Shown one piece after another: positions 46,250-48,289 of a stretch of 64,000 nt of DNA (position 1 is the stretch's first letter; each line of letters starts with the position of its first letter). The notes beneath the pieces are model-generated. The model saw only the letters and a list, made by a program, of their open reading frames with translations, was not told where the DNA came from and did not search any database. The position numbers and the translations under genes are program-made. The DNA comes from Rhizobiales bacterium SYSU XM002 (GTDB lineage: Bacteria; Pseudomonadota; Alphaproteobacteria; Rhizobiales; Beijerinckiaceae). Where the stretch lies: NCBI GenBank assembly GCA_009846685.1, contig VWVY01000003.1, positions 186,001 through 250,000 on the forward strand, written 5' to 3'.

Positions 46250-46639
46250 TCAGTGACGAACTGCCGCCAGCATCGCCTGAAGCGCGTCGATGGTCTCCTG
46301 CGCGCGGGCACGGGCCTCATCGGTCCTGGCGTCGCGCAGGTCTTCCTGTGCGTCGCGAAGCTGGGCCGAGACCTTCTCTGCGTCGATGTCCTCAACCGCT
46401 ACCGCCTGCTCGGCAAGCAGGGTCAGGCCGGCGGGCGTCACGTCGGCGAAGCCGCCGCGCACGAAGAGGCGCTTACCGTTATCGACCGTGACGATGCCGG
46501 CGCGCAGCGCCGTCATGACAGGGGCGTGGTTCGCGAGAACCGTCATGTCGCCTTCGGCGCCGGGAACCACGACCGAGGTCGCATCGCCCGAGAAGAGCAC
46601 GCGTTCCGGCGAGACGAGTTCGAAGCTGAAGGTTGCCAT
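46250..46639 (-). CDS. atpC: ATP synthase F1 epsilon subunit
   Basis: A 129-residue rotor subunit of F1. The beta-sandwich domain opens with TFSFELVSPERVLFSGDATSVVVPGAEGDMTVLANHAP, the family signature, and the C-terminal helical hairpin follows (ALRDAQEDLRDARTDEARARAQETIDALQAML). An AAGGAA site lies 7-8 nt before the ATG. It is the last gene of the operon, 3 nt after the stop of the small 64-residue gene that separates it from atpD, and is followed by an intrinsic terminator. Confidence 0.95.
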   Translation of the reverse strand: MATFSFELVSPERVLFSGDATSVVVPGAEGDMTVLANHAPVMTALRAGIVTVDNGKRLFVRGGFADVTPAGLTLLAEQAVAVEDIDAEKVSAQLRDAQEDLRDARTDEARARAQETIDALQAMLAAVRH

Positions 46640-46642
46640 CGT

Positions 46643-46837
46643 CTATTCCTTGCTGTCGAGATCAGCGCCACCAGTTATCGAGAGCTCCAACTCTCCCAAA
46701 ACCGTAACGTCGATATACAGGCGGGTTCGATCCTCAAATTCGACCATGACCTCCTGAGGTCTACGTCGAACGACTTTCTTGACACGCAGACCAGCAAGTA
46801 TTTCGGTTGCTCGCTGGCCTTCCGCGCCCAGTTCCAT
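46643..46837 (-). CDS. Small protein of unknown function between atpD and atpC
   Basis: A 64-residue frame that fits exactly between atpD (stop at 46841) and atpC (start at 46639), with 3-nt gaps on both sides. The protein alternates polar and hydrophobic residues in a strand-like way (VRRRPQEVMVEFEDRTRLYI, GELELSITGGADL), which supports a real beta-rich fold. An internal ATG at 46746 is preceded by a perfect AGGAGG, so a 34-residue product is the alternative. Base composition is about 53% GC and third positions about 54% GC, far below the neighbouring atp genes, so its origin or coding status is unusual. I do not recognise the family. Confidence 0.6.
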   Translation of the reverse strand: MELGAEGQRATEILAGLRVKKVVRRRPQEVMVEFEDRTRLYIDVTVLGELELSITGGADLDSKE

Positions 46838-46840
46838 GCG

Positions 46841-48289
<1,449 letters not shown>

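Follow-up and report, generated by a model that had tools for sequence, protein, structure and literature searches.

The spacer between atpD and atpC in the window (the whole 64,000-nt stretch of DNA that was analysed) was found to hold a small gene, here called X, which on the evidence of its sequence is a protein-coding gene of an undescribed small family. The preferred explanation, in which we place roughly even confidence, is that X is an orphan gene with horizontal mobility which has docked between atpD and atpC and is transcribed with the operon. Housekeeping operons are viewed as closed, yet in a few species the F1 operon holds a foreign gene. Relatives of X are found within an insertion sequence and in what we read as an integron-like array, and the gap is occupied by different ORFs in some other genomes. 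The features of the locus are as follows.

46643..46837, minus strand: X, 64 amino acids, small-protein family without prior description; recognised by its frame, by homology in one frame only and by purifying selection in the family
46841-48274, minus strand: atpD (F1 beta), upstream neighbour, a name taken from the preliminary description which fits the homologues used; junction TGA CGC ATG, the ATG being that of X
46250-46639, minus strand: atpC (F1 epsilon), downstream neighbour; junction with the end of X TAG ACG ATG, the ATG being that of atpC
46646..46651, minus strand: AAGGAA in the terminal codons of X, 6 nt upstream of the ATG of atpC, a possible ribosome site for atpC
46745..46755, minus strand: internal AGGAGG-TC-ATG at codon 31, with 2-nt spacing and with conserved residues upstream, probably no start

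X runs on the minus strand from the ATG at 46837 to a TAG ending at 46643 (64 codons) and occupies all but 3 nt per side of the 201-nt spacer, so the coordinates confirm the preliminary description of a 64-codon frame filling this spacer. The composition of X, described there as far below that of its neighbours, was found to be so, with a G+C content of 53.3% (53.1% at third positions) vs. 65.7% (88.3%) for atpD and 67.7% (82.2%) for atpC. A single copy was found in the window genome (G000). Dinucleotide shuffling of the spacer gave an ORF of 64 codons or more, from start to stop, in 18 of 20,000 shuffles and 64 stop-free codons in some frame in 2,975 of 20,000. The length of the ORF by itself is fair evidence for coding and no more; X is taken as coding because homology, not length, settles the point.

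The protein homology search of the 64-residue sequence identified eight homologues, matching in the frame of X only, which scored 58–123 against them vs. 13–29 (noise) for the other five frames. Seven of the eight share 23–28 identities over 48–63 residues with X (z 16.2–21.5), the eighth (in G011) being weaker with 14 identities over 53 residues (z 8.8). On the aligned frames, dN/dS was 0.23, 0.24, 0.07, 0.13, 0.14, and 0.15 in six close pairs drawn from the family, none of which includes the window copy. Close copies of X within the atp gap number two (G158 and G227), one of them frameshifted, and for this pair dN/dS was 0.23 in the part downstream of the indel. Both the search and the dN/dS values, named as checks in the preliminary description, thus speak for a coding gene.

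The earlier view of X as unassigned and foreign-looking agrees with the database comparisons, in which no Pfam or NCBIfam cut-off was reached. No Pfam family was returned for the window protein; the best Pfam resemblance, DUF6188 (PF19686), appeared in three of seven family members (best E 0.012) and is weak, with scores, where shown, of 12.4–14.3 bits, below the curated membership cut-off of 27.1. NCBIfam likewise returned nothing for the window protein, with a best E of 0.015 among the seven family members. PADLOC returned no families, PHROGs no convincing match and two scans of virus contigs no relative of X. Phage matches at E 0.5 and PDB sequence matches (best E 0.013 and 0.12) were taken as chance, as were weak matches at E 0.03–0.94 (12 rows besides its own, in 10 other genomes). 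One match in G341 (E 0.002), with two stops inside an ABC-permease-like region, was dropped. An AlphaFold model from two sequences was weak (mean pLDDT 65) and predicts, at low confidence, a helix at residues 5–13 followed by strands at 19–26, 29–34, and 39–44; the protein is probably beta-rich, as had been proposed. A Foldseek search of this model against the PDB gave no match at E ≤ 0.001 among the 605 listed up to E 10.

A shorter, 34-residue product from an internal start had also been put forward. The in-frame ATG (codon 31) and the AGGAGG before it are both present, the ATG lying at 46747 rather than 46746 and the AGGAGG at 46755-46750, only 2 nt away. This distance is shorter than the usual spacing of a ribosome site. 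In a 10-row family alignment L14, G16, R24, and E29 are invariant and E6, V19, and R26 nearly so; the shorter product would drop all seven, and it is disfavoured because the invariant residues precede codon 31. Codon 31 is therefore unlikely to serve as a translation start of X.

The family to which X belongs is mobile, riding an IS5-type element and, on our reading, occurring as an integron-like cassette. Homologues were found at E ≤ 0.01 in 10 of 397 genomes of the order, five of them, including the window genome itself, at E ≤ 1.1e-10; the other five (E 0.0015–0.008) were treated as chance. The family was also found in 2/289 genomes of the class, 4/239 of the phylum, and 6/146 of genus g78, and on plasmids in three Leptospira records at seven places. 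Homologues thus occur in other families and in a spirochaete, some as scattered chromosomal genes, and the suggestion that X is a recently evolved open spacer is disfavoured on this account. The G+C content of X was lower than that of its flanks at all nine loci measured.

At three loci (L061 and L062, which are identical, and L063) X has the left inverted repeat, CTAGGCGGCGTGGACAAATT, on one side and a broken transposase on the other, followed by the right repeat. Plasmids carry similar elements, for which the annotation is IS5 family. X is thus a passenger gene of an insertion sequence at these loci, where inverted repeats and transposase are found together; the window copy, in contrast, has neither, and no IS end or IS remnant was found near it. 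The left end of this element was matched at no fewer than 18 of 20 positions in seven of nine plasmid copies (L235, L236, L237, L238, L240, L241, and L242). Between CTAGGCGGCGTGGACAAATT and the transposase are 288–408 nt with a different small ORF in each plasmid copy, the cargo in L235 being DUF6881 (110.6 bits). The element is an insertion sequence with swappable small cargo. Its cargo in L240 gave a doubtful 22-residue match (E 0.006) to the X copy of G1259.

In G1259, X is bracketed by two attC-like repeats at a distance of 343 nt from each other. The same stretch continues with a third copy of the repeat and with repeats of a second type, and we read this locus as an integron-like cassette array. 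No such repeats were noticed at the window locus, which was inspected without an attC model, and the atp gap is no known integron site. The array stretch of G1259 also holds a RelE/YoeB-like toxin frame. This frame favours another small-protein job for X (antitoxin, anti-phage factor or mobile-element regulator), as do the IS5-type cargo slot and the cassette array, which would suit many kinds of accessory gene. However, X stands without a partner gene in the window and the PADLOC result was empty, and we regard a job of this kind as quite unlikely.

Other loci give a hint of toxin immunity. In the Leptospira plasmids an Rhs gene is followed by a DUF6258 gene and then, after 190 nt, by X. The copy in L229 overlaps the end of a DUF4279-like gene (19.9 bits against a cut-off of 25). 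At most other loci of the family no such context was recognised; of the six X loci in g78, five have no toxin-like neighbour that could be recognised, nor has L079, and the window copy has no gene for a toxin, secretion or a recombinase beside it. DUF4279 is tied to polymorphic-toxin immunity in one report (PMC13304343). On the basis of this link and of the Rhs/DUF6258 and DUF4279-like neighbours, we tentatively suggest, at somewhat less than even confidence, that X is most likely a small cytosolic alpha-beta protein for orphan immunity, which would neutralise a toxin entering the cell, or for another defence-type task. The orphan immunity genes of acquired interbacterial defence systems (rAID) are described as small, mobile and fast-diverging, with no adjoining toxin and in recombinase-linked arrays (PMC12247911). 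X resembles them in the first four respects and differs in standing alone in a housekeeping operon, with no toxin partner known.

Within Rhabdaerophilum, X was found in the atpD-atpC gap of 2 of 17 genomes, namely the window genome and G011. The other 15 gaps measure 0–21 nt (two of these small values being approximate, as AtpC was matched from residue 2 or 3 onwards), and atpC is present in all 17. The genus was recognised through L019 (G009), which equals L045, R. calidifontis, in its spacer and in AtpC identity. In G011 the gap is 235 nt and encodes a 77-aa homologue of X, with a stop overlapping the atpC start. A scan of the GTDB family found X in 4 of 298 genomes, the remaining two (G158 and G227) being among the 48 of Microvirga, with X in the same gap. 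The spacer of G275, of the genus of these two, is that of Microvirga roseola (L052/L109). Microvirga gaps could be read in 47 of the 48 genomes: two hold X, one (G215) holds an unrelated 146-aa ORF and the remainder, 72–206 nt long, are without X, many having a GC-rich hairpin-like stretch. Most of these gaps (L080-L126) end in a common ...GGGATGACGAGGAGCTCAG before atpC; the X carriers have neither the hairpin-like stretch nor this end.

The preliminary description held that loss of the frame in close relatives would count against a gene. The frame is indeed not conserved within the genus, and X is nonetheless real, so this comparison cannot separate a new gene from a mobile one. In a tree built from AtpC and the last 200 residues of AtpD (59 in the case of G011), each of the four carriers joins a different small group (G000 with G014/G005/G008; G011 with G013/G001/G015/G012; G158 with G297/G270/G177; G227 with G682), in a topology with many weak forks and one outgroup row inside the genus. 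Such scatter speaks for repeated gain, transfer or many losses, with no choice among these. The tree of X itself has no starred branch, and a single old origin of X in the gap is therefore possible.

The preliminary description had also offered X as a lineage-specific F1 accessory protein. As an accessory protein or a tuner of the beta:epsilon ratio, X would have been kept in some lineages and lost in others, in line with its presence in the same gap of two genera (Rhabdaerophilum and Microvirga) and with its co-orientation and tight spacing in all atp-gap copies. The bases GGAATAYCT are common to G158 and G227 before atpC, and these two inserts therefore have one origin, which would suit this account as well. 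However, X is missing from 46/48 Microvirga genomes and from 15/17 congeners, contrary to the retention expected of an F1 subunit, and the copies of G000 and G011 are only about 21–26% identical. Linkage to the atp operon does not hold wherever the family occurs, its members being found in an IS, a cassette array, an Rhs stretch and scattered loci. Because the family occurs outside atp operons and 15/17 congeners have no room for the gene, X is probably not an F1 subunit, and a role in F1 seems to us very unlikely. An extra ORF is present between the gamma and beta genes in the F1 operon of Rhodopseudomonas blastica; it is like X in being an unassigned small frame in an atp operon, but the gaps differ. 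No gene between atpD and atpC was found among the literature matches listed.

The copy in G227 (L125) carries a 1-nt deletion, its DNA being 82% identical to that of the G158 copy, and the deletion is either recent decay or an assembly error. It would fit a neutral hitchhiker, that is, a mobile-element gene stranded in a harmless gap and translated without use to the host, as would the foreign composition of X, its patchy carriage and the very long branches of G000 and G011 in the X tree. Against this, the frame is intact in three of the four atp-gap copies and the G158/G227 dN/dS downstream of the indel is 0.23, and we consider a useless passenger unlikely. If X is instead a docked mobile gene, as preferred here, it would need no promoter of its own in the gap. 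Ribosomes finishing atpD could re-initiate 3 nt on, at the ATG of X, and the AAGGAA in its tail may supply the ribosome site for atpC; X would thus be made constitutively with ATP synthase and the operon left unbroken.

A wider and more doubtful proposal is that mobile genes for orphan immunity or defence dock repeatedly in the atpD-atpC gap of these Hyphomicrobiales. There they would use the steady expression of an essential operon, and the conserved flanking genes could act as homology arms by which the insert passes between species. If so, essential operons would be worth searching for orphan immunity genes that have stayed hidden, and a small family without a curated model would gain defined members and contexts. 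The search for signs of docking gave neither an insertion scar nor an IS end nor a signal of recombination. Identity between G158 and G227 in 100-nt bins does not rise beside X (atpD 84–93, atpC 70–80), which leaves the homology arms without direct support.

The gap was surveyed in a non-random sample, sense ORFs only being scored. The sample was made up of the genus, the 13 family loci that ranked next, 14 further loci, 47 genomes of Microvirga with one repeat, and another 100 listed places. Of 192 gaps, 191 could be measured (L217 was too short) and 183 were distinct, with a median of 101 nt and 16 of at least 180 nt. An ORF covers at least 83% of the gap in 8/183, comprising X in G000, G011, and G158 and five others. 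The comparison of spacers thus bears out the frame of X in a few relatives only; the gap is empty in most genomes, which argues against docking, and some hold other ORFs.

These other ORFs are of four types. That of G215 (L119, Microvirga) is a co-oriented ORF of 146 aa in a 453-nt gap, with a G+C fraction of 0.51 and no Pfam match. L134 (G295) and L169 (G077) have ORFs of 113 and 164 aa, respectively, with a signal-peptide-like start by eye and no Pfam match above cut-off. An all-against-all comparison of the gap ORFs and IS cargo found no homology among the other gap ORFs apart from the pair in L050 (a Xanthobacteraceae MAG) and L188 (G100), which are homologous (E 2e-19), 82–90 aa long and two-TM-like by eye and come from two lineages.
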